Assembly (NCBI GenBank): GCA_019054805.1
Contig: JAHQIY010000012.1
Location: 1,178,001-1,242,000, forward strand
DNA: 64,000 nucleotides
Source of the DNA: Brachionus manjavacas
Taxonomy: Eukaryota > Rotifera > Eurotatoria > Ploima > Brachionidae
Direction of reading: 5' to 3'
This document shows, piece after piece, positions 2,061-64,000 of this stretch; within the stretch, counting starts at the first letter, position 1; the number at the start of each line of letters is the position of its first letter. The notes below the pieces were generated by a model. The model was not told where the DNA came from. It was given only the letters and a program-made list of their open reading frames with translations, and did not search any database. The translations under genes were made by a program, and so were the position numbers.

Positions 2061-3100
2061 AAGCATGTCTAACCTCTAGCTATTTCAGCTTGACGTTTTT
2101 GATTTTTTTTTCATTATTTAATCCTTTATATTTTAAAGGGTGATATTTATTGTATCATCAAATATCTAAAATTTATCATCAAAAAATTGAGTAAATAACA
2201 TCAAAATTCCAGTCATGGACAAAATTCGATATTTACCGATTATTCGATTATTCAACTATTAAATGATTGTTAAATTTTCAAATAATTTCCGGTAGAATTT
2301 TAAACAAACTGGGGATTGAATGGGGTCTGGGCCGCAGCCCCGGTTTAGGGAATCCGGTTAATTAGAAGTAAAGAGAGATCTTAATAAATTTATTCTGAAT
2401 TATTTACCCGAAAAGCTGAATAATCGAATAATCGAATAGTCATTCAGTTGAAAAATTAGTTGAAATTAAATATATTTGAATTGTTGAATAATTGTATTTA
2501 AAAAAATATTGTCCATATTTTGGTAAATTATTCTGAACAGCAATATAATATAAAATGTTTGCATTTTTAGCATTTTGAATATCTTGGACAATCATATAAA
2601 ATTCTCGTATTATTATAACCAATTATTTTTATTTACATCAGCTGGTATTATATGCTTTCATTATTTACAAAATCATCGAAATATTTTCTAATTTTTTTCA
2701 TATTCAAATCTTGGGCTTTTTTGAACTAACTATTGATTTAATTTGAATTGTGAATTGAAAGATGTAGATTGAAAATAAAATATACAATTATTTGCTTACA
2801 AAACTACTGTTATAATGATTTATAAATCATTGTAAAATTCCATAATTTTTACAAAAAATAACGTATTGCTGATTGATTTCAAAGTAATTTAATTTTGAAG
2901 TAAAATTTTAATTAAATGCTTTATTTAATTATTAGTGTAATTTTTTTTTGATTTAGAGAAAAAAAAATTGATGCATCATAAATTAAGTTATTTCTATTTG
3001 TTGTTAAAAAAATATTTTTGACGACAAAAATTTAATTTTGATGATAAATTTGAGTAAAATTTTGATGCCAAATTCTGATTTATTTCATGATGAAAATATT
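2061..3100. other. AT-rich DNA with a small imperfect inverted repeat
   Basis: No gene seen. Near 2232-2260 the motif gattattcgattattca recurs in reverse complement near 2416-2440 (gaataatcgaataatcgaa), with a GC-richer centre at 2310-2360. This looks like a short non-autonomous inverted-repeat element, but its ends are unclear. The rest is simple AT-rich sequence. Confidence 0.35.
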
Positions 3101-3814
3101 GGCAATGTGAAATATTAGTACAAAAATTACAGCACAAAAAGTAAAAACGCTATAATTTTTTTTCTAATTGTGTAAAAATGGTTCTGTAAACAGTACAATA
3201 TTGTACAAATTTTTTAGAAACAAATACCAAGCTCTGCAAAAACTCTGCAATTTATGGCAATGTGAAAAATTAGTACAAAAATTACAGGACAAAAAGTAAA
3301 AACGCTATAATTTTTTTTCTAATTGTGCAAAAATGGTTCTGTAAACAGTACAATATTGTACAAATTTTTTAGAAACGAATACCAAGCTCTGCGAAAACTC
3401 TGCATTTTTCTGTAAAATGCACACCATCAAAAAATATATGATTAATATCTGCAATAAATTGCAGAGTTTTCGCAGAGCTTGGTATTCGTTTCTAAAAAAT
3501 TTGTACAATATTGTACTGTTTACAGAACCATTTTTGCACAATTAGAAAAAAAATTATAGCGTTTTTACTTTTTGTACTGTAATTTTTGTACCAATATTTC
3601 ACATTGCCCAATTTATTGCATATATTAATCATATATTTTTTGATGGTGTGCATTTTACAGAAAAATGCAGAGTTTTTGCAGTGCTTGGTATTCGTTTCTA
3701 AAAAATTTGTACAATATTGTACTGTTTACAGAACCATTTTTACACAATTAGAAAAAAAATTATAGCGTTTTTACTTTTTGTACTGTAATTTTTGTACTAA
3801 TATTTCACATTGCC
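3101..3814. mobile_element. Fold-back (long-TIR) non-autonomous DNA transposon with 8-bp target duplication
   Basis: The element begins GGCAATGTGA and ends with its reverse complement. Its arms are built from about 150-bp units containing ctgtaaacagtacaatattg, aaaacgctataat and accaagctctgc. Two units lie in forward order (from 3101 and from about 3254) and two in reverse (from about 3463 and 3660), so the whole can fold into a long hairpin. The direct repeat aaaatatt occurs at 3093-3100 and at 3815-3822, an exact 8-bp target-site duplication. An open frame at 3305-3541 is a by-product of the arms. No transposase is encoded; 8-bp duplications suit hAT or Merlin-type mobilisation. Confidence 0.85.
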
Positions 3815-4004
3815 AAAATATTTGCTCCCTATTTTAAATTTCACTTTTTACATAGTCTCCAAGGCGTTCATCCAAATAAATACAATGAATCCGAAAAAAA
3901 TTTTGAGTGAAAAATCAGACACGTGATGGTAGTGTTTATTTTTGTTTAATTAAAAAAAAAAATTAATTTAAAACGGAAAAAAAAAGTAATCTAAACTCTA
4001 TAAT

Positions 4005-5767: not shown

Positions 5768-6300
5768 GCCACCCTCCTATTTTTGTTGTTGACCGGGCTT
5801 GGGACCGGCTATGGCATAGTTATGGCCAAAAGAAGACTGTGGGACGTTCATCAATGAACAAGGCCACTCAACCGAGCACAATGCTGCGATCTCGACCCTG
5901 CTCACGACTAGCTTGGAACCACAAACCAAGCATATTCTCGCCTATGGCAGAATACTTAACTTTGTCTTCTTTTAATTGTGAATTTTTTTAGACTTGTCTA
6001 AGATGCTTCTTTTTTCAAATGGTCAAAATATGATTAAATGTTCAATGTTGCTTTCTTTTTTTGAAAATTGTTCAAAACCTAATTCACTCATTACGAAAAA
6101 CTTGTGATTGTTTTAAAAAAGGGTCAGTTTTTAAATTTAAAGTGAATGATCTCTATTGTAGTAATAGTCTGAATAATTGCAACAACTTTGAATATTGAAT
6201 ATAATGTATTACGTAATTGAAGCACTGTACATCAAATAAATGATGTTTGTTCAAATTTCAATGAGCGTTTTGCTTAAAACAGTAATACTAACAATTGCTA
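5768..6300 (+). repeat. Interspersed repeat R, copy 1, with downstream duplicated flank
   Basis: A GC-rich core starting gccaccctcc and running to about 5960 stands out from the AT-rich surroundings, followed by an AT-rich tail to ttcttttttcaaa near 6018. It recurs at 10529-10781, 12066-12320 and, inverted, 31007-31259, nearly identical in the core. The core has an open frame on this strand, but the frame is not obviously coding. From about 6020 to 6300 the sequence matches 12320-12600, and around 6073-6150 it also resembles the upstream region of the LRR gene at 6852-6925, including the reverse complement of its start codon context. So this block carries a decapitated LRR gene start. Confidence 0.8.
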
Positions 6301-10528: not shown

Positions 10529-10781
10529 GCCACCCTCCTATTTTTTGTTGTTGACCGGGCTTGGGACCGGCTATGGCATAGTTATGGCCAAAAGAAGACT
10601 GTGGGACGTTCATCAATGAACAAGGCCACTCAACCGAGCACAATGCTGCGATCTCGACCCTGCTCACGACTAGCTTGGAACCACAAACCAAGCATATTCT
10701 CGCCTATGGGAGAATACTTAACTTTGTCTTCTTTTAATTGTGAATTTTTTTAGACTTGTCTTAGATGCTTCTTTTTTCAAA
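10529..10781 (+). repeat. Interspersed repeat R, copy 2
   Basis: Same unit as at 5768, from gccaccctcc to tgcttcttttttcaaa, differing at only a few bases. Unlike copies 1 and 3, it lacks the duplicated LRR flank, so its edges help define the repeat itself at about 250 bp. It lies 165 bp beyond the 3' end of SLC25A16. Confidence 0.85.
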
Positions 10782-12065: not shown

Positions 12066-12749
12066 GCCACCCTCCTATTTTTTGTTGTTGACCGGGCTTG
12101 GGACCGGCTATGGCATAGTTATGGCCAAAAGAAGACTGTGGGACGTTCATCAATGAACAAGGCCACTCAACCGAGCACAATGCTGCGATCTCGACCCTGC
12201 TCACGACTAGCTTGGAACCACAAACCAAGCATATTCTCGCCTATGGCAGAATACTTAACTTTGTCTTCTTTTAATTGTGAATTTTTTTAGACTTGTCTAA
12301 GATGCTTCTTTTTTCAAATGGTCAAAATATGATTAAATGTTCAATGTTGCTTTCTTTTTTTGAAAATTGTTCAAAACCTAATTCACTCATTACGAAAAAC
12401 TTGTGATTGTTTTAAAAAAGGGTCAGTTTTTAAATTTAAAGTGAATGATCTCTATTGTAGTAATAGTCTGAATAATTGCAACAACTTTGAATATTGCATA
12501 TAATGTATTACGTAATTGAAGCACTGTACATCAAATAAATGATGTTTGTTCAAATTTCAATGAGCGTTTTGCTTAAAACAGTAATACTAACAATTACTAT
12601 TTTTTTTTATTTTTTTTTTTATTTTTTATTTTTAATGAATAAAATTTTTTTAAAAAAATAAAAAATTATGTTTTAACAGATTTTAGATTGTGTAAGTGAT
12701 CAAAGGCATCTTTTGATAATTTTTCAAATGGATTACCAAATAAATCAAG
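12066..12749 (+). repeat. Segmental duplication: repeat R copy 3 plus LRR flank
   Basis: This block matches 5768-6441 nearly base for base: first the R unit, then the decapitated LRR start, then the end of the LRR gene up to aaataaatcaag at 12738-12749. Differences are a longer poly-T/A tract near 12600-12640 and scattered substitutions. At 12750 the match to the first copy stops abruptly and resumes at 13542, which marks an insertion. Confidence 0.88.
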
Positions 12750-30640: not shown

Positions 30641-31259
30641 CACATGCGCTTCAAATTTCAAAACTGACCATTTTTTCAAACAATCACAAGTGTTACGTAA
30701 TAATCGAAATAGGGTTTGTTTGATTACGTAACTCTTTTCTAAAAAAAGAAAGCAACATTAAACATTTAATCATATTTTGACCATTTGAAAAAAGAAGCAT
30801 CTTAGAGTCTTAAAAAAATTCAAAATTAAAAGAAGACAAAGCTAAGTTAAGATATTAATTATGAGTTTATGCAAAGAAAATCAATTTGTATTTTGACTTT
30901 TCGTTTTTTCTTATTTCAAAAACTAGAAATCAAAAATTTTTCAATCGATTACGTAACACTTTACTAAAATAAAAAGCATCATTAAACATTGAATCATATT
31001 TGACCATTTGAAAAAAGAAGCATCTAAAGCGAGTCTTAAAAAAATTCACAATTAAAAGAAGACAAAGTTAAGTATTCTGCCATAGGCGAGAATATGCTTG
31101 GTTTGTGGTTCCAAGCTAGTCGTGAGCAGGGTCGAGATCGCAGCATTGTGCTCGGTTGAGTGGCCTTGTTCATTGATGAACGTCCCACAGTCTTCTTTTG
31201 GCCATAACTATGCCATAGCCGGTCCCAAGCCCGGTCAACAACAAAAATAGGAGGGTGGC
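30640..31259 (-). repeat. Interspersed repeat R, inverted copy 4, with tandem flank
   Basis: 31007-31259 is the full R unit on the minus strand, with the core nearly identical to the plus-strand copies. Its AT-rich tail region (tttgaaaaaagaagcatct, agaagacaaag) is repeated at about 30716-30845. Further out (30640-30715) the duplicated LRR upstream block can be recognised (tcacaagtgttacgtaat). So the same R plus LRR-upstream combination that occurs at 5768 and 12066 sits here in inverse orientation, 18 kb away and 0.26 kb upstream of PPP2R3C. Confidence 0.8.
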
Positions 31260-31517: not shown

Positions 31518-32909
31518 ATGGATTTGATGAAACAAAAACTCACCAAATACCTAGACAAAAAGCACTATATACGCGACGAGCAAAGCCTGGTGGCAGCCGA
31601 CGTGAGCGAATTCCTCAAATTGTACCCAAAAGCAGCTGAAAGCCAGCAAGCTCACAACTACCATCAAATACCGAAGTTTTTCAATCCATTGCCGCACGAA
31701 GATGACCTGATGCAGCAGCGTCTGCGAGAAGAGGCGCGAGCTTTGTTTCTGCAGAAAAAGAACCGCGAGTTGCTAAGCAACGACGAGCTCGAGAACCTGA
31801 GGGCCCTCCTCGAGCAACACATAACCAGGCCCATAGTCGCCGACGAAATCCTCATCGACTACCAAAATTTTCGCAAGGTCGGCTCGCTGGTCGGCGACAA
31901 GTGCAAGCAGTTTTTCACGCCATCAGTCTTCGCCAAGCTGTACGAGTCGGACCCGGACGGCCGCATATCCATCAACCAATTCCTGGGCTATGTGACCAAA
32001 AAGTTTTGGCTGCACCAGACCCGCATCGGCCTCAGCTTGTACGACGGCGCCGGCCTCGGCTACCTCAAAGAGTCCGACCTCGAAAACTACATTTTCGAGC
32101 TCATACCCACCCTGCCCCAGCTGGAAATTCTCGAAAAGTCCTTCTACTCGTTCTATGTGTGCACTGCGGTGCGCAAATTCTTCTTTTTTCTTGACCCGCT
32201 GCGCACAGGAAAAGTGAAGATAACCGAAATTCTGGCGAGCGGCTTCCTGGACCAGCTGATCGAGCTGCGCGACGAGGAGCTCAGCAAGGAGCATCTGGAG
32301 ACGAACTGGTTCTCGGCGCAGTCAGCGCTCAGGGTGTACGGCCAGTACTTGAATTTGGACGAGGACCACAACGGCATGCTTAGCAAGCAGGAGTTGTCGC
32401 GGTACGGCAGCGGCACTTTGACCGATGTCTTTTTGGACCGAGTGTTCCAGGAGTGCGTGACGTACAGTGGCGAAATGGACTACAAGTCGTATCTTGACTT
32501 TGTGCTGGCTCTGGAGAACCGGTCGGAGCCGCAAGCGCTCCAGTATTTGTTCAGAATACTGGACATAAAGCAGAAGGGCCACTTGAACCCCTTTGACATA
32601 AACTATTTCTTTCGCGCCATCCAAAAGCAGCTCAAGAAGTTCGGCCACGAGCCCGTCAACCTGCGCGACATTCAGGACGAGATCTACGACATGGTGAAGC
32701 CGGCCCATCCGCTCAAGATCACTCTGCTCGACTTGATAAACAGCGGTCATGGCGAAACGGTCACCAACATTTTGATTGATTTGAACAGCTTTTGGTCGCA
32801 CGAGAACCGGGAGAGTCTGGTGGTTGAGCCGAGCAATCCGAATGCGGCAAGTCAGGAGGCCGAGAACGAGCCCGCTTCAAACCACACGTCTGATCACTCA
32901 TCCAAATAA
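31518..32909 (+). CDS. PPP2R3C: PP2A regulatory subunit B'' gamma
   Basis: A single-exon protein of 463 residues, close to the 453 of human PPP2R3C (G5PR). It targets protein phosphatase 2A, and in vertebrates also PP5, and is linked to lymphocyte survival and centriolar functions. Family stretches include IPKFFNPLP, EEARALFLQKKNRELLSNDEL, IDYQNFRKVG, LNLDEDHNGMLSKQELSRYG (a canonical EF-hand loop with D, D, N, G, S and E ligand positions), and VFQECVTY.GEMDYKSYLDF. The C-terminus is Ser/Asn/Glu-rich. Its GC content is far above its surroundings and it has no intron, unlike vertebrate orthologues; this may reflect retroposition or intron loss. A poly(A) signal (aataaa) lies near 32955. Confidence 0.96.
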   Translation: MDLMKQKLTKYLDKKHYIRDEQSLVAADVSEFLKLYPKAAESQQAHNYHQIPKFFNPLPHEDDLMQQRLREEARALFLQKKNRELLSNDELENLRALLEQHITRPIVADEILIDYQNFRKVGSLVGDKCKQFFTPSVFAKLYESDPDGRISINQFLGYVTKKFWLHQTRIGLSLYDGAGLGYLKESDLENYIFELIPTLPQLEILEKSFYSFYVCTAVRKFFFFLDPLRTGKVKITEILASGFLDQLIELRDEELSKEHLETNWFSAQSALRVYGQYLNLDEDHNGMLSKQELSRYGSGTLTDVFLDRVFQECVTYSGEMDYKSYLDFVLALENRSEPQALQYLFRILDIKQKGHLNPFDINYFFRAIQKQLKKFGHEPVNLRDIQDEIYDMVKPAHPLKITLLDLINSGHGETVTNILIDLNSFWSHENRESLVVEPSNPNAASQEAENEPASNHTSDHSSK

Positions 32910-54378: not shown

Positions 54379-54662
54379 TTTTTTTTTTAATTTTCTTCTA
54401 AAGCCGTTTGAATAAAAAATTATCTATGAATATTTGATTTTTTTATTAAAAAAGTATGTGGACTTGGGAATGAAAAGTGGCTGAGTAGAATATTTATCAA
54501 AAAAACTGTTATAATTTATTTAAATGATTAAAAAAGTTTAAAAGAAAAAAATTTACTAAAAAAAATGAAAAAATTTATTTTGTTTTGGTCAATTTTTTTA
54601 AAAATAGTCGGTAAGACTAAAAAATTAATAATTTAGTAAGAGTTTTTTTGTAATTTCTTAAG
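54379..54662 (+). other. Chitinase upstream region with candidate signal-peptide exon
   Basis: ATG 54566 opens a frame that reads MKKFILFWSIFLK and then a stop, while a donor gtaaga at 54611 would join perfectly in phase 1 to the chitinase exon at 54663 if one base were added in the T7A4 run at 54594-54604. So a signal-peptide exon is likely, but it is one base out of frame as given. Confidence 0.45.
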
Positions 54663-57600
54663 TTTGCGATGAAAAGTTGTTTGTGTGCTACTACACTAAT
54701 TGGGCCCAGTATAGACCACAAGGTGGTAAATATATGCCAGAGCAAATAAATGCCAGTCTTTGCACTCACATTGTGTTTGCTTTTGCCAAAGTGGTTGATG
54801 ACCGACTGGTCGCATACGAGTGGAATGATGAAGATACAGAATGGAGCAAGGGGTTGTACAGCAAGACAATTGACCTGAAGAAGCAGAATCCTCGCCTCAA
54901 GGTGTTGATTGGTGTTGGTGGTTGGAATCATGGACCAGAGGCCTTTAGTGTGATGGTTCACGATATTCAAAAGAGAGAAAAGTTTGTTCGCCATTGTGTC
55001 AATTTCATCAAAAGAAACAGATTCGATGGTCTTGACTTGGACTGGGAGTATCCGGGATCAAGAGAAGGATCAAGACCAACTGACAAACAATTGTTTACTA
55101 TTTTAGTCAAAGAATTGAGAGAAGCATTTGAACCATTTGGCTTTTTGTTGACAGCAGCAGTAGCAGCTGGTCATGAGAATATTATCAAAGCTTATGAAAT
55201 TGATAAACTAGCGCAGTAAGTTTAAAATTATTATTCATTTATTTTTTTAATTAGCTCCTTTTTTTCAATCAATTACAATTTTTTTATTGACTGTTAAATT
55301 TTTCTTGAAATTTTGTTTACCTGTTATTTATATTAAAAAGATCACTGAATTATTTATGCGTTTTAGATTATTTAATCTTTTACTTATTTACAATTTGAAT
55401 AAATTTTTTAAATTTCAAAGAAATTGAAAAAAAAATTCGTAGAAAAAATTCTTTTTAAATATCATTAAGTAAAGTGGGCTATTTTGGCACTTCTAAATGT
55501 AAATATTTTAATCAAAAAGAGAAAAATTGAAAGATTTATGTCTAACATTTGTTTTCCTTATACATTTTTTTTTTTATTAAATAATCTTGACAATTTTTTA
55601 TTCTGAAAATTCAGATTAAAAACTGAAAATAATTGTATTGTATATACCTATGCTGATGCCACGGAATTTCTTTGTGACATTAAAATTAGTGCTTTTTTCA
55701 ACCAATTCTCTTCCATGCATGAACTTGTATAATTGAATTAAATCACCTTTTTTTCTTCTTTCCACCAGATTTGGAATGTTCAAAGCCTTCAATTTACTTT
55801 TATGCGGTTTTTTTCTAATTGAGGAAACAAATTTCGTAGCTCCACGTTGAATTCTTTCAACACTCTCACAGTCACATAAATTTCTTAAATTTCAAACAAA
55901 TTGAAAAAAAATCGTAGAAAAAATTCTTTTTAAATATCATTAAGTTAGGTGGGCAATTTTGGCACTTCCAAATGTAAATATTTTAATCAAAAAGAGAAAA
56001 ATAGAAAGACTTGTGTCTAACATTTGTTTTCCTTTTACATTTTTTTTTTTATTAAATAAATAATCTTGACAACTATTAATACTGAATGTTTAGATTAAAA
56101 ACTGAAAATAATATTAGTTTGAAGTGTGTCACAAACATTTTTTTTTTATAAATTTCTCATTTATATTTTTACATGTAAAATTCACTATTTAAAAACTTAA
56201 TTTTTTTTGGATGAAGATACAATACATAAATTCTTGATAAAAAAATAATAAAAACTTTTGACTCATTTAAACTGAGTCAACATACTTTTTCATTTTTATT
56301 CTAATGTAATTTTATATAATAAATAATAAAATATCTTTTAAGTTTAATTTTAAATTCGTTTATATCATTTGGTTGAGCTGTTTCTTTTGGAAAATTGTTA
56401 ATGTTATTTTTTTAATGATTTTATTTTTACAAGTAGCATGTTATAAATTCTAATTTCATTTAAGATAATAGACTAAAGACAAAAATTCTGATTTATTTTA
56501 ATTTGAACCAAAAAAATTTATTAAATATAAACATATGAATATGCCAACCAGCCTGGATTTTTTCAAGGACGTCAGCAAACCTCACCACAAATTTAGATAA
56601 AACCATCACTAATTTAGTAATTAAATCAATTTTTCATTTAAAAAAGTTTTAATTTTTAACAAAATCAGTAAAAAAATCAAATACAGTGTAAATGCCAAAT
56701 GTTGAGTTAAATTGAGTTGAAGAAAATCCTAGTCTGCGATTACTCATTTCAATTTATCTTAATTTTTTTTCTATAATTTATTTCAACTTTGTTAAAAACA
56801 AATAAATTATAAAAAAATATTCACTACTTTCATTTTAAAAGAAAAAAGCCTGGCAGTAGTTCAAAATAAATCAATTAAAATAGCCAATTTATAATATAGC
56901 TTGTCAAAAAATAAAAATAGCAAATGAAATAGCTAATTAAGCCATTTTTTTAATTAATAAATAAATGAGAAAATATTACCTGTATTTTTAAAATATTTAA
57001 TTTCTGTCTATTTTTTTTTAATTTAGTTTATGTCTTATTTATTTATTTATGTCCAATATATTTAATTGAGGAAAAAACGTATAAAATATTTACAAATTGT
57101 TTATTTTATTAAAAAGAACATTTTTTTTAAACAAAGATATTTTGAAACATTAAACAAAAAATTTTAAATAATCAATTTTCCTACTGTCTAACTAAAGAAC
57201 CTCTTGCTTTCGACTTACGATCTTCTTTAGCCTTCTGTTCAATCGCTTCACGTATTTATTTTGAAGGTATTGTTACCAACTTTAAGTTTACTGCTAAAGC
57301 TATAATATGAAAACAATAATAATTTTTCATATAATATACACAACTACATTTACACCTCAACGAGTTCTTAATATTCTAGAATAAGTCAAATTTTGCTTTA
57401 CTATAATCATTAATCATTACGCCCCGTCTTTCATCTTACAAAACGCTTTCACTTTTTTTTATTGATTACAAGTCCCCTGTGTACTTTAATTAAATTATTT
57501 TCAATTTTTATCTTTTCGTGGCGTAAACTATCAATTACTAAAATTAGAGCATAAAATTTTTGAGTATGGCTGCGTAAAGATAAAATATTTTAATAGTAGA

Positions 57601-59291
57601 ATTGTCTTACTACAGATAATTATTTTAGAAAAAAAAAAATCGGGAGGGAGATAAAATATCTTAGAAGGGATTAAATGACTATAAAAAGAGAATTAAGTGC
57701 AAAATTTTATTTTTAAAATAATTAAAAAAACAAATGAAAAAAGTGATATAGATTAAATAGTGATTAAGATTTAGAGCCAGATTTACAATTTTTGCAAGGC
57801 CAATATTTTTTCAAAGAATATATTTATACACGATTTGTGAAAAAACAAATTACATGTATTACAAGTCAAGTGATTTTGATTAGTTGGTGGACATGGTAGT
57901 TTTTAGAGCAATTAGATTTTATTTATTTGTTTATCTGTAAACTTTAATTCAAAATTCTATTTAAAAATATTCATAATTATTGTATTCGTTTTTAAAATTA
58001 TGCTCAACTAAAATTAATTTTTTCTTAATTTATTCGTATTATAAATTATAAAACAAAATATTATTTACATTGGGCTGAAAAGAAGGACTTTGATCCATTC
58101 TGAGCTGATCCGAATCTGTTTTAAAAAATTTTTCTTTAAAATTTTTTTTTACATTTTCAAATAATAAAGAATTAATTAAAAAAATTAATTAATTTGTTTA
58201 TCTGTATCGAGGTAATGCTCCTTCAGAATAAAAAAAAAAAAAAAAAAACTGAAATTAAATAAAGTTAAATATGGTAAAATAGAATAAAAAAAAAAGGATA
58301 AAAAAAAAATAAATAAATAAAAAAAAAGGATAAAAAAAAAAATAAATAAATAAAAAAAAAGGATAAATAAGTCAAAAGAAAATTAAGAACGATATTTTTA
58401 AATAACTAGAGTTAAGACATGTTTAAATGTTAGGTTAGATTAATTTCAGTTTAGTTTTATAAGAGTACTTATTAAGATTCAAAGAGTACTTTTTAGATTT
58501 TGAACAAGACTAAACTTTTCTTATCTTTTATTAATCTGTAAATAAGTTTATGTACAAAAATTTTTATCTGTATCTTTTTAATTGTATTAAACATTTTTAT
58601 AATCGCATGCGGGTTGAAAAGATGGTTTTAGACCATTCTGAACTTCCCAAGGGCCACGGCCCTTAAATTATTATTTAAATAAATAAAAAAAAATAAATTA
58701 TTAAGATTCAATAAATGACTGTTTTCTAATTAATTTGTCAATTAGAAGGGTTAGAGATTAGGGGGTTATTTTATTAATACCAAAATTCAAAGTAATCAAT
58801 TAATTATCTTTTTGTACTTTCTTGTGAAAGATATTTTATCTTCAAAAAATTTACCTTACTAGGCAGAGATAATTATCTGTTCTAAGACAATTCTGCGCAA
58901 AGATATTTTATCATTATGCAGCCATACTCAAATTTTTTGCTTCAAAAAATGAAATCATTGAATAGAAAAAGAAGTGTTGAAAAAGCTATTCTGAACACGC
59001 TATTTTTCAACCCTTGATAAAGCAATTGCGAACAAGCTTTTTTACAAAAAAAACGAGAAAGGCACTTTTGACGAGCTTAATTGAATAATTTATTTTAAAC
59101 AAAGCTATTTTGATATAAAGCCGCGCGGAACTACTTGTTTCAATTTTTTAAATTTTTCTGAATAAAATTTATCATTTTCGATTTCAATATTTTTTTTTCA
59201 ATAAATTCACATAAAATGAAAATCAAATAGGAATTTACTATACCTAAGAAAGTTAAATAGCAATGAGATTTGTTTGGATAATTAAAAAATA

Positions 59292-59378
<87 letters not shown>

Positions 59379-62300
59379 CTACGGTGGGCTATCACACCAA
59401 ACTCTCATTTGCTATTGACTATCGCGACGAATTGATTTTGTCAGCCATTTTCTTAAACAAGTTCTTTGAAGCCGCTTTGACTACTTCAGGAGGCAATCTG
59501 TTTCAGTTGTCTACAACAGTTGTAAAATATGAAATGCTCTCGTCAGTTGTTTGGCCATTCTGTGTTGGTACCCGCTTATATTCCTCACTCGACCAGAACA
59601 GATCGAATCACAAAGTTTGTTTGGATTGTGCCAATTTACTTTAGTTAAACTAATAGCATTAGTAATATTCGACTAGATCACCTCTTTCTCCTATCTTTTT
59701 CAGTATTCTGAGTCCCGACTTTTATAATCTCGTCTCATATGATAAATGCTTTTGACCAATTTTGTTGCTCATTTTGGTACCTTCTCGAACACTAATATGT
59801 CCTTTTTGGTGTACGGACACCAAGCAGCTTACTCGAGATGAAGTCTTGCAAATTCAATGTAAACCTTCTTGAACGTAGCAATTGACCATGACTTGAATGC
59901 TTTGGGTAATTGTCCTAGTACCATATTAGCTCTTTTAGCTGCAACCGAAACTTGCATACTTCATTTAAGATTTGAACTTATCATTATACCTAAATCGCAT
60001 TCGCTACTTGTCTTACTCATTTCTTATCCATTCATTTTCAAAATAATATCGAAGTACTTGTTGTGGAATACCTTAAACTTGCATCTATCAACATTGAAAT
60101 CCATCATCCAGTATTTAGATGAAAAAAAATTAATTGATTAAAACTATTTACTTTATCAGTTAAGTCGTTTATATAATTAATAAAAAGTATGGGTTCTAAA
60201 ACAACTCTTGTGGTACACCACATGAGACTTGAGTTGAGGTAAATACTGGGTTCTCTATTGCTACACTCTGTTTTCGACGAGTAAGAAATGGTTTTATCCA
60301 ATTGACTATTTTATTATCAAAATTTTTTTAATTTAAGTGAGAGTCTCGATTGGAATTAGATTTAAAATTTTTATTTGAGTCATTTATTTTTTTAGAGAAC
60401 TATTATTCCTTTTTTATAAGCAATTTTGAATAATTCAAAAGAAATTTAACTTCAATTAAGTAGAGAAATCGGACCGAAACGAATGCATAATGCAGGTCGG
60501 GTTAGTCTCTGGATGTTCTCTTACCATAATAATAATAATAATTTCAGATCAGAAACGATCTGCAATTATAAACAATTAATTGATTGAAAAATTCAATTAA
60601 CTTTATTTTTCCATTAAAAATTTGTTTGTGAATTATTTTTTTCTAAATATTTTTTATCTCTTGCAAAAGGGCACTAAATTTCTGCTTCACCAAATAATTA
60701 TTAAATACTTCACTGAAATAAATCACCAAAAATAATAAAAAATGAACCAAATAAATATGTTCTTCACCAAATCAATTTTATTTCACAAAAAAATACTTTT
60801 TTTTCACCAAATTTATTAATTATTTTAAACCAAAAAAATATTTAAATATGTAAAAATAGTGAAATTTAAAAAAATGAGAAATTGTTGTCGTTCATGTGTT
60901 ACTCAAGTGCCGGTATGGAGAAAAAAAGAAATAAAGAATCATTAGAAAAAATTTAGCTACATTTGAAAGCTGATTTGATCATTATCTTGTCTCGATGTAA
61001 CCTCGAATTTGACTCGATTTTGTTCGGCAGAAAAAATATTTTTACGAATTATACAATCGAATGATAAATAATAGACTTAACTCAAGCTAATTAATTTTTT
61101 ATAAATGAAAGACAGCATAGGCATCATGATGAAGTTTATTGTTATTAATAATAATAATAATTATAATAAATATTTTTTAAACAAGCGATTTAAAGAAAAA
61201 AAGAACAAAATTTAAAAAATTTTTAAATTTAGTGAAACTTTTACGATTATTTAAATTGGATCTCTTTGTTAAATACTTTTATTTTGTGATGGATTTGAAT
61301 GTTTTTATGTTGAAAAGATAGATACATTGCCAATTACTATTATTTCATACTAGTTAATATTGCTACTAGTTCATTACATTTCAGGTAGATTTAAGTAAAA
61401 TTATAATAAAAGAAAACTTTTTTAAAAATTAAGTAAAATAAAAATAAATTTTTTTTAATTTTTTTAAATATCAGTTTTATTAATTTTTGATAAGGACAAA
61501 ATGATTTTGTCAATTAATATAAATAAATATCAATTAAAAAAGAAATATTTGTCAATTAAAACTAGATAATTCGTCAGTTATACTAGAGTCAATTTGAAAA
61601 AATAAACGTCATTTAAATAAATGTTTTGTTAATTGTTTTTTATTTTTGTCAATTTAAAAAATATCTGTCACTGTAATATGAAAGAAAATATAAAAATAGA
61701 ATTTAAATATGGAAATGTTTTAGCTCCTTATTTTGGTTTATTTGTGACATTAAAATTTGGAGTTCTTGGTTAAAAACGTTCTCATGTACAATTTGTTGTT
61801 CGCTTGATCCTTCCAGTTTGATTAAAAAATCTTGAAATTTATTCCAGTTGATTTTTGAGATTATTTTTTTCTCCTTTTGAGGTTCAATATCCTTAAAAAC
61901 AGTGATTGTTGGTTGGTGATCGCTTATATCAGAGTCAAGAACTTGATATGAGTCGAAATATTTTAGGAATGAGTTCGAAGTGATCGAAAGATCGATGATG
62001 CTGTTACTTCTAGGGTATGTAGGTTTATCAGAGTTTAAAATATGCATATTCAGGTCATTTATTAGATTAAAAACAATTTCACCTTTTGAGTTTGAATTTT
62101 TGCAGTTCCAGGCTTGATGTTTGGCGTTTAAATCCCCGATTATTAAAAAATTTGTGAATTTCGAATAAATATACTGGAAAATCTCTTGGTTTAATTTAGT
62201 GTATTTAGTGTAATTTAGTATATTTAAAAAATGAAGACAATAATAAAAAATTAATTGTAATTTATTTTTTTTATTAGCAAATAATCCTTATTAAATGATT

Positions 62301-64000
62301 AAATTCACAAAAACTTGATTTAATTGACTAAAATTAAATTAAATTATAAATTAATTATTTTAAGTTACAAATATTTAATATAATTGAAAAGCAGGGATTG
62401 ACGAAATTAAATTGACAAAAAAACTAAATGACATTAATCTAAAATAATTGACAGTTTCTCTCCCTGTCTTATGATAAAATGTCTCTAAAATTTTTAAATA
62501 AAAAAAAAATTATCTAATATTTTTTTGAAATTTCTGAAATTAAATTAGAATAGTCGATTTTAAATTTATTTTTAAAAAGTTTAATTTAGCTTGAAAAAAT
62601 TATTTTTTATTTTCTCTGATTAAATAATTAGATAAATTTGAATTTTTCTTAATTCTTAATTCTGATAAAATTTTAATTTCAAAAAAAAAAAAATTTATCT
62701 TTAAATTTGCGACATTAAATTGGAAAATTTAAATTTAAATTTAAAAACTTTAATTTAGCTTTAAAAAATTTAAATAAATTTTTATAAATAAAAATTAAAA
62801 AATCATTTAAGGTACTTTGACTTCATTTGCTTGATGGCATATGTAAGTTTTTTCTTCTAATTAAATGATAAAAAGAACAAGTTTTAAAATTTTTCTAAAA
62901 AATATTTCTCTTTCAGGATTTTCATGGCTCTTGGGAAGAAACAATTGATCACAATTCTCCTCTATATTCACGCAAGAGTGAATACAGAGATGCAAGCTAT
63001 TTGAATGTCGATTGGGCTGTCAATTATTGGCTCAAGAGTGGATTTCCCAGAGAAAAGTTTGTGCTCGGTTTGGCTACATATGGTCGACCATTCAAGCTCA
63101 AAGATTCGAAAAGACATGAGCCAGGCGATCTGAATGATGGAGCGGGCACTCCTGGAAAAGTAACAATGAAAAATAATTTAATTTTTTTTTCAAAGAAATC
63201 AATTAAAATTTAAATAAATTTTAAACAAATTTTAAATAAAGTTTACAAGAGAAAAAGGATTTTTGAGCTACTATGAAATATGCAAAAAAATTCTGAGCGA
63301 GGGATGGACCAAGAAATGGAGCGATGAACAAATGGTTCCGTATGCGCATGGTGAAAATGAATGGGTTGGATATGAAGATGTTGACAGCTTAAGAATTAAG
63401 GCCAGGTACATAAATGAGATGGGTCTGGCTGGTGCTATGGTATGGAGTCTCAGTCTGGATGACTTTAGTGGAGCATTTTGCAATGAAGGGAAATATCCTC
63501 TTATTAATGCTATTCGAAAAGAACTCACAAATCAACAAAATGAAAATAACGATGACAAAGTGATCCGTGTAAATCATGAAGATCAAATTATAAAATACAA
63601 TGAAAAAAACAATGACATAGATGATAGGAAAATTATTTATCCTCAAGTTAATAATTACAAGACAGATAATTTTGATCAGCAACCATCGATAGAAAATTTA
63701 AATGAATTAAATGTTGGCTTGGAAGACTCAGATAGAACAGACAATGTTTTTCCTTATTTAAATATAAAATCAAATGATATGAATTATCAAAAGGTAAGTG
63801 AAAATTTAGATCTGATTAGAAATGTTGAAGAAGAGAAAAAAAAGTTGTTTGTGTGCTACTACACTAATTGGGCCCAGTATAGACCACAAGGTGGTAAATA
63901 TATGCCAGAGCAAATAAATGCCAGTCTTTGCACTCACATTGTGTTTGCTTTTGCCAAAGTGGTTGATGACCGACTGGTCGCATACGAGTGGAATGATGAA
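54663..64000 (+). CDS. Multi-domain GH18 chitinase, continuing beyond the window
   Basis: Secreted family 18 glycosyl hydrolase cleaving chitin. Exons: 54663-55215, 62812-62842 (31 bp), 62917-63159 and 63242 to beyond 64000; phases agree. The first GH18 domain starts LFVCYYTNWAQYRP and has the catalytic FDGLDLDWEYPG (DxxDxDxE), then LMAY|DFHGSWE across the tiny exon, KFVLGLATYGRPFKL and MVWSLSLDDFSGAFC. All key residues are present. An Asn/Asp-rich linker of about 105 residues (about 63520-63835) leads straight into a second domain whose first 54 residues are identical, at DNA level too, to the first. A perfect donor word gtaagt at 63794 is open in frame, so alternative splicing before the second domain is possible. 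The N-terminal exon is uncertain. Intron 1 (7.6 kb) is full of repeats. Confidence 0.93.
55408..56115. repeat. 225-bp direct repeat flanking a LINE fragment
   Basis: 55408-55633 and 55886-56115 are about 90% identical (aaattctttttaaatatcat, ttttggcacttc, gtctaacatttgttttcctt). The 250 bp between them is the LINE fragment of the next entry. This is either a tandem duplication of a LINE-containing segment or a small element with direct ends. Confidence 0.8.
55645..55890 (-). mobile_element. LINE family F, C-terminal fragment
   Basis: Minus strand: CESVERIQRGATKFVSSIRK, then LKALNIPNLVERRKKGDLIQ and LYKFMHGRELVEKS. These match the iQRRATKLV...LxxLxLxxLxxRRxRGDLIxxYK signature of CR1-like elements with no stop over about 75 codons. 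Confidence 0.78.
56116..57179. other. AT-rich intron DNA
   Basis: No gene, clear repeat or RNA recognised in this part of chitinase intron 1. Confidence 0.3.
57180..57460 (-). pseudogene. MULE transposase C-terminus with SWIM finger, second family
   Basis: Minus strand: LRCKCSCVYYMKNYYCFHII, an intact CxC...CxH SWIM finger, then ALAVNLKLVTIPSK, a stop, and IREAIEQKAKEDRKSKARGS. The sequence differs from the family at 45324 and 47930. Only the tail of the transposase is present. Confidence 0.65.
57550..58950. mobile_element. Long-TIR element with LINE tails inside
   Basis: 57558-57640 (gagtatggctgcgtaaagat, agaattgtcttactacagat) is closely complementary to 58845-58935 (agacaattctgc, gcagccatactc). 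Between the arms lie an inverted family A LINE tail (58190-58235), two family D tails (58075-58115, 58610-58690) and aaggataaaaaaaa-type tandem repeats (58280-58370). No transposase. The outer ends start at about gagtatggctg. Confidence 0.65.
59288..59378. repeat. AAT microsatellite
   Basis: About 30 uninterrupted units of aat/taa over some 90 bp; it ends directly at the LINE fragment that starts at 59384, so it may be that element's 3' tail on the minus strand. Confidence 0.95.
59384..60330 (-). mobile_element. LINE family G reverse transcriptase, decayed
   Basis: On the minus strand from 60300: RKQSVAIENP, VSCGVPQ, ILFINYINDL (the GPiLFLIYINDL block), then FNVDKCKF (mutated), CDLGIMISSNLK and AAKRANMVLGQ near 60010-59910, and further C-terminal blocks to 59400. 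Stops are frequent, and the catalytic FADD is not recognisable. The AAT run next to it is probably its tail. Confidence 0.72.
60331..61489. other. AT-rich intron DNA with caccaaa words
   Basis: Between 60685 and 60830 caccaaa recurs five times with AT filler. No gene or repeat partner is seen elsewhere. Confidence 0.3.
61490..62480. mobile_element. Element with gtcaatt-rich ends, invaded by a LINE
   Basis: At 61510-61670 gtcaatt or gtcatt words recur every 20-50 bp, and at 62395-62460 the complementary aattgac words recur, forming loose inverted ends. 62282-62395 matches 29627-29718. In the middle is the LINE endonuclease fragment. The pattern recalls the array at 20759. Confidence 0.45.
61703..62200 (-). 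mobile_element. LINE endonuclease (EEP) domain fragment
   Basis: Open without stops for about 160 codons on the minus strand: QEIFQYIYSKFTNFLIIGDL NAKHQAWNC, then MHILNSDKPTYPRSNSIIDL and DSDISDHQPTITVF. GDLNAKH and SDHQP are catalytic blocks of apurinic-like endonucleases of jockey/CR1 type LINEs. It is the only endonuclease domain in the window; the RT that should follow is absent. Confidence 0.82.
62481..62811. other. End of chitinase intron 1
   Basis: AT-rich; two imperfect copies of aaatt.gaatttt.atttaaa.. words and then the acceptor aatcatttaag before the 31-bp exon. Confidence 0.35.

Follow-up and report, generated by a model that had tools for sequence, protein, structure and literature searches.

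Three chitinase-type domains arranged in tandem within a single gene are about 98-100% identical to one another in their exons, linkers and adjoining intron ends, while the long intron that splits each domain has an interior unrelated to the other two. Among the histories considered here, recent ectopic gene conversion within an older three-domain array fits best, and we regard it as the probable one. The window, that is, the whole stretch of 64,000 nucleotides that was analysed, corresponds to C12:1178001-1242000 in a 114-Mb genome assembly of 61 contigs. Contig C12 has a length of 3,355,919 bases, and the last base of the window is contig base 1,242,000; coordinates above 64000 extend the window numbering past that end.

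Within the window, bases 54672-54832 and 63840-64000 are exactly alike (161/161 bases). The first-pass annotation had already recognized this identity and had placed the first copy one base too early, at 54671-54831. Chance is ruled out as its source, since the longest exact repeat in five dinucleotide-Markov sequences of the window's length was 17 or 18 bases. The repeat measures only 161 bp because the window stops there, and the identity runs on in the contig, as the annotation had expected of a copy leaving the window. A third copy of the 161 bp is found at C12:1251033, and a relative with 72% identity is present on contig C5. The annotation was also right that the sequences preceding the two copies differ: an apparent signal-peptide exon and the end of an intron lie ahead of the first copy, a coding linker ahead of the second. 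It had set two outcomes against its own reading, a single GH18 domain and an assembly collapse at 63840. The contig continues past this point with three domains whose intron interiors differ, so that an assembly end or collapse there is rejected as the main cause. Its tandem GH18 domains of near-identical DNA are there, in the number of three instead of two.

A single gene model in the contig, with GT-AG introns, accommodates an apparent signal peptide, three GH18 domains and a CBM14 domain (Table 1). Three stretches in each of the three domains match Pfam PF00704 above cut-off (five exons were rechecked), and the C-terminal tail contains the CBM14 match (Pfam, E 5e-10). The catalytic motif of GH18 enzymes is DxxDxDxE, and it is present in all three domains (3/3) as FDGLDLDWE. 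The best match of domain 1 among 52 PDB matches, which include entries named group II chitinase, is chitotriosidase. The gene apparently encodes a secreted animal-type chitinase with three tandem GH18 catalytic domains and a C-terminal CBM14, and all three domains are predicted to be produced and active. An animal source is suggested by the introns together with the GH18-CBM14 architecture; a bdelloid spliced-leader pattern, with up to one mismatch allowed, gave no match. As the assembly stands, unmended, an A-run in linker 2 lacks one of the A's present in linker 1, and the reading frame breaks ahead of domain 3, which may be real or a base-calling error. When 269 bp of linker were searched genome-wide, two occurrences were obtained, both inside this gene.

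Table 1. Coordinates of the features of the three-domain gene (window numbering, extended past 64000).
Feature	Position	Strand	Basis or remark
Exon 1 with an apparent signal peptide on visual inspection (MKKFILFWSIFLKIV...)	54565-54610	+	has ATG and GT donor; reading frame continues into exon 2
Exon 2, with FDGLDLDWE and the exact repeat 54672-54832; N-terminal half of GH18 domain 1	54663-55215	+	Pfam PF00704, E 5.4e-45
Domain 1 intron, 7,596 bp	55216-62811	+	only first ~660 bp and last ~200 bp match domain 2 intron
Block A1, gene-specific intron sequence	55399-55633		1/235 substitutions vs unit 2
Block L1, 241 bp, read as LINE end	55634-55874		99% shared with unit 2
Block B1, second copy of block A, read as older resident	55876-56112		17/233 sites from A1
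Dispersed repeat, interior 1	59404-60116		best ~80-81% identical to relatives scored; query positions 15-727 from 59390
Open stretch with LINE-type endonuclease domain, interior 1	61706-62287	-	PF14529, E 2e-17
Exon 3, domain 1	62812-62842	+	gene model
Exon 4, C-terminal part of domain 1	62917-63159	+	gene model, Pfam
Exon 5: domain 1 end, intronless linker of ~111 residues (333 bp), N-terminal half of domain 2	63242-64383	+	window part to 64000
Second 161-bp copy, domain 2 start	63840-64000	+	identity goes on past window
Later exons of domain 2	72006-72036, 72111-72353, 72436-73576		gene model; last has domain 2 end, 332-bp linker and N-terminal half of domain 3
Final exons: domain 3 end and C-terminal tail	82884-82914, 82989-83231, 83314-83898		gene model

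The likeness of the three units extends well beyond what they encode. Over 1,083 coding bases, units 1 and 2 differ at eight sites (three synonymous and five amino-acid changes, pS 0.014), units 1 and 3 at five (four synonymous and one amino-acid change, pS 0.019), and units 2 and 3 at nine (five synonymous and four amino-acid changes, pS 0.023). The comparison of synonymous differences, which the first-pass annotation had proposed, thus returns few of them (pS 0.014-0.023 among the three domains). The exons of the N-terminal half differ between units at 1-3 of 544 sites, and the linkers at one of 332 sites with one gap. For the exons of the C-terminal half, 8-11 differences are counted over 702 sites, short intron pieces included. 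In the long intron, the first ~660 bp differ between units 1 and 2 at 2/658 sites and three one-base gaps, and the part of this 5' end retained in unit 3 shows no difference from the other units (0/131 and 0/132 sites). At the 3' end of the intron, 3-4 of 198 sites differ, with two indels against unit 1, and a longer match between units 1 and 3 reaches 97.3% over 1,056 bp, gaps counted. That introns and synonymous sites are so alike speaks against a simple explanation by constraint on the protein. Near-identical tracts, coding and non-coding alike, are set within diverged sequence, a pattern expected of intragenic concerted evolution by gene conversion.

Stretches of 161 bp and more without a single difference could also be produced by an assembly in which the reads of one unit polished the others, or in which a repeat was expanded or collapsed, and the one-base difference in the A-run of linker 2 that breaks the frame resembles a homopolymer error. 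We nevertheless consider an artefact of this kind very improbable, because every copy is tied to its place by an adjoining interior of 6-8 kb that is unrelated to the others, and the unit-specific substitutions persist, at 5, 8 and 9 of the 1,083 sites. Moreover, the 60 kb that were read contain no N. At individual bases, assembly or polishing may still have had an effect.

The long intron interrupts each domain at the same codon and measures 7,596, 7,622 and 9,307 bp in domains 1, 2 and 3, respectively. The first-domain intron of 7.6 kb that had been annotated is borne out, and past position 64000 the second domain is likewise split at this site, by an intron of nearly equal length with different contents. 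Between the three interiors (6,580, 6,367 and 8,084 bp) blastn with words of 9 and 11 detected no long collinear homology, only short pieces. The largest piece shared, 297 bp common to interiors 1 and 3, was considered as a sign of a common intron and set aside as a dispersed repeat with 40 matches in the genome. Recent tandem duplication of a whole unit would leave the units identical throughout, introns included, while here the interiors are unrelated.

The contents of the interiors give some indication of their age, based on searches of parts of each, with 40 candidates scored per search. In the 2.9 kb searched of interior 1, which also carries the dispersed repeat and the endonuclease stretch of Table 1, short repeats reach 84-91% at best against the relatives scored. 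In the 3.6 kb searched of interior 2, one repeat is 80-87% identical to many places and a second 82-92%; a reverse-transcriptase match there is below the Pfam cut-off (22.5 vs 29.6 bits), so the term LINE is for interior 2 a presumptive one. As the repeats in these searched parts are at best 80-92% identical to their relatives, they look older than the identity of the exons. Interior 3, of which 1.8 kb were searched, holds a DDE transposon that is 97-98% identical to three other places; it spans ~3.1 kb and has inverted ends of 531 bp that are 99% identical (L007:7193 to L008:290). On this sequence evidence, interiors 1 and 2 seem to predate the identity of the exons, while interior 3 was partly refilled in recent time. 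Conversion is favoured over plain recent tandem duplication for two reasons: the interiors are unrelated, and two of them, in the parts that were searched, carry older-looking remnants of transposons. Thus, of the three origins offered by the first-pass annotation, recent gene conversion is the one preferred, recent duplication in its plain tandem form is less favoured, and an assembly repeat is unlikely.

The main rival to conversion is a recent tandem triplication of the domain unit, followed by replacement or filling of the intron interiors through transposons and deletions; we judge it unlikely, with several observations in its favour. The young transposon with inverted ends in interior 3 indicates that intron contents do turn over, and introns 1 and 2 are nearly equal in length (7,596 and 7,622 bp). 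Against it stand the interiors, which retain no long collinear homology, and, as far as interiors 1 and 2 were searched, transposon remnants that seem older than the exon identity. A further difficulty comes from the beginning of intron 1, where block A occurs twice. This block has four matches in the genome, all within this gene, which rules out the idea that it is a dispersed repeat. The order in unit 1 is A1, then 241 bp common to unit 2, then B1. A1 differs from its counterpart A2 in unit 2 at 1/235 sites, whereas its neighbour B1 differs from A1 at 17/233 (Fisher p 5e-5) and is therefore ~7% diverged, a disparity between adjacent blocks that does not sit well with triplication. The 241-bp piece, L1, is taken for a LINE end, since a reading frame on the minus strand of unit 2 continues from it into a dispersed repeat. 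We read B1 as the resident, and A1 with the 241 bp that follow as a tract that would have been copied from unit 2 and rejoined ahead of it.

A second joint is found in unit 3, where the 3' intron flank before the exons of the C-terminal half is duplicated (joined-piece positions 32183-32495 and from 32536 on). An older resident flank was considered here as well, on differences of 7.0% (21/302) and 9.6% (13/136), but these end-to-end comparisons included non-homologous ends; in the clean overlap the flank differs from the exon-adjacent copy at 2/101 sites. The flank thus marks a joint and carries no difference in age, and one of the two joints with duplicated flanks has a clearly older resident.

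Under conversion, the array would predate the identity that its exons now show. A block made up of a C-terminal half, the linker, the next N-terminal half and the adjoining intron ends would have been copied recently between units, presumably by repair synthesis that used another unit as template, with a direction of copying that we infer. Copying would have halted at the non-homologous intron interiors, or slightly within them, and in intron 1 a non-homologous joining would have put the copied tract next to the older resident block, which stayed in place. In the joined piece, the 5' intron match of units 1 and 2 extends to 5874/15043 and that of units 1 and 3 to 5346/23708; the latter end is partly due to deletion, as 55 bp of block A follow it. 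The intron end common to units 1 and 2 could instead reflect shared descent.

The copying may also have taken place more than once. Substitution sites among the three units amount to 3/676 on the N side vs 19/900 on the C side (p 0.004), and in one aligned block pair to 4/1,008 vs 12/900 (p 0.04), an unevenness of divergence that, in the aligned DNA, suggests more than a single event. On the C side, by contrast, every unit has the same number of private differences (7, 7 and 7, the third with two indels counted as one event each). Such an even distribution is also expected from near-simultaneous triplication and speaks in its favour. A descent of unit 3 as a mosaic of units 1 and 2 is unsupported, the sites being evenly private.

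Another conceivable route starts from a gene with fewer domains, two divergent haplotypes of which would have undergone unequal exchange, so that the interiors would be former alleles. A single step of this kind would give both identical exons and different intron contents. Alleles with unrelated 6-kb introns between flanks ~99% identical would, however, be unusual, and we give this route hardly any credence.

Genome-wide, 98 stretches match PF00704, and 10 further GH18 regions, a subset of all, were compared for pairs above 90 bp. At C1:7773390-7778666, two GH18 units have three near-identical segments in common, 437, 359 and 722 bp long and 99.3, 96.1 and 99.9% identical, respectively, and the sequence between these segments sits at different places in the two units. 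By its sequence layout this array may show a similar pattern, with insertions after a plain duplication as the alternative. At C1:11572001-11600000, three GH18 blocks of 3.3-4 kb are 97.8-98.7% identical, one of them inverted; a recent whole-block duplication at another GH18 locus is a point in favour of triplication in the gene studied here. In the other eight regions, no near-identical pair of GH18 stretches above 90 bp was found, and the few short pairs present fall outside the GH18 matches, one of them overlapping a tRNA.

Some features outside the chitinase gene were also recorded. Rfam RAGATH-11 matches four times, at 5834-5952, 10596-10715, 12133-12251 (-) and 31075-31193 (+), with 91.9-94 bits against a gathering score of 79.4. 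All four lie inside one repeat, with 95-99% identity between its aligned pieces, which are ~250-685 bp long; there was no RAGATH-11 match in 14 other stretches (138 kb), and a literature search on RAGATH-11 found no paper. A cluster of direct and inverted repeats of ~150-360 bp, with 91-97% identity, occupies window positions 3093-3823. Elsewhere in the assembly, C21:120555-121901 (-) belongs to an intron-less run of bacterial-type oxidase genes, which we take to be cyo-like. The largest oxidase subunit is at most 58% identical, in the best segment, to 80 of the 216 relatives obtained in a pattern scan of prokaryote genomes, and the run, as sequenced, suggests an undescribed bacterial associate or a contaminant in the assembly.

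In its architecture, the gene recalls the insect group II chitinase Cht10, which combines several GH18 domains and a chitin-binding domain in one protein. The domains of Cht10 are clearly different from one another, whereas those described here differ at 1-5 of 361 residues. Repeats homogenised within one gene are known from abalone VERL, where ~22 internal repeats evolve in concert and repeats 3-22 are >95% identical in nucleotide sequence (PMC2704960). The two genes are alike in having tandem domains inside one gene; unlike the ~22 VERL repeats, there are three enzyme domains here, each split by an intron of 7.6-9.3 kb with an unrelated interior. Near identity of paralogues is likewise ascribed to gene conversion for gibbon opsins (PMC3213168) and Siglec-11/16 (PMC5701461). 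The near-identical paralogous sequence is common to these cases and ours, and the exchange described there is between duplicated genes, whereas here it would be between domains of one gene. Among the titles listed in a literature search, none concerned homogenised GH18 domains within one gene, which is no proof of absence from print. Since intragenic concerted evolution is already known from abalone VERL, the chitinase represents a further case of a known process and not a new process.

What is unusual in this gene is that an exon block is kept alike across unrelated intron interiors of 6-8 kb. As three copies of the block are each framed by an unrelated interior, the ends of the tracts can be read directly, and the gene offers a compact natural record of exchange tracts. 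It also carries a warning for this genome, where counting or dating domains by their chitinase exons alone would be misleading. More broadly, and only tentatively, multi-domain chitinases of this animal may have their domains homogenised repeatedly within the gene. One-sided ectopic repair would reach across long non-homologous introns, copy the exon blocks and leave an older intron flank next to the new one as a scar, a process that might extend to more than one GH18 array of the genome.
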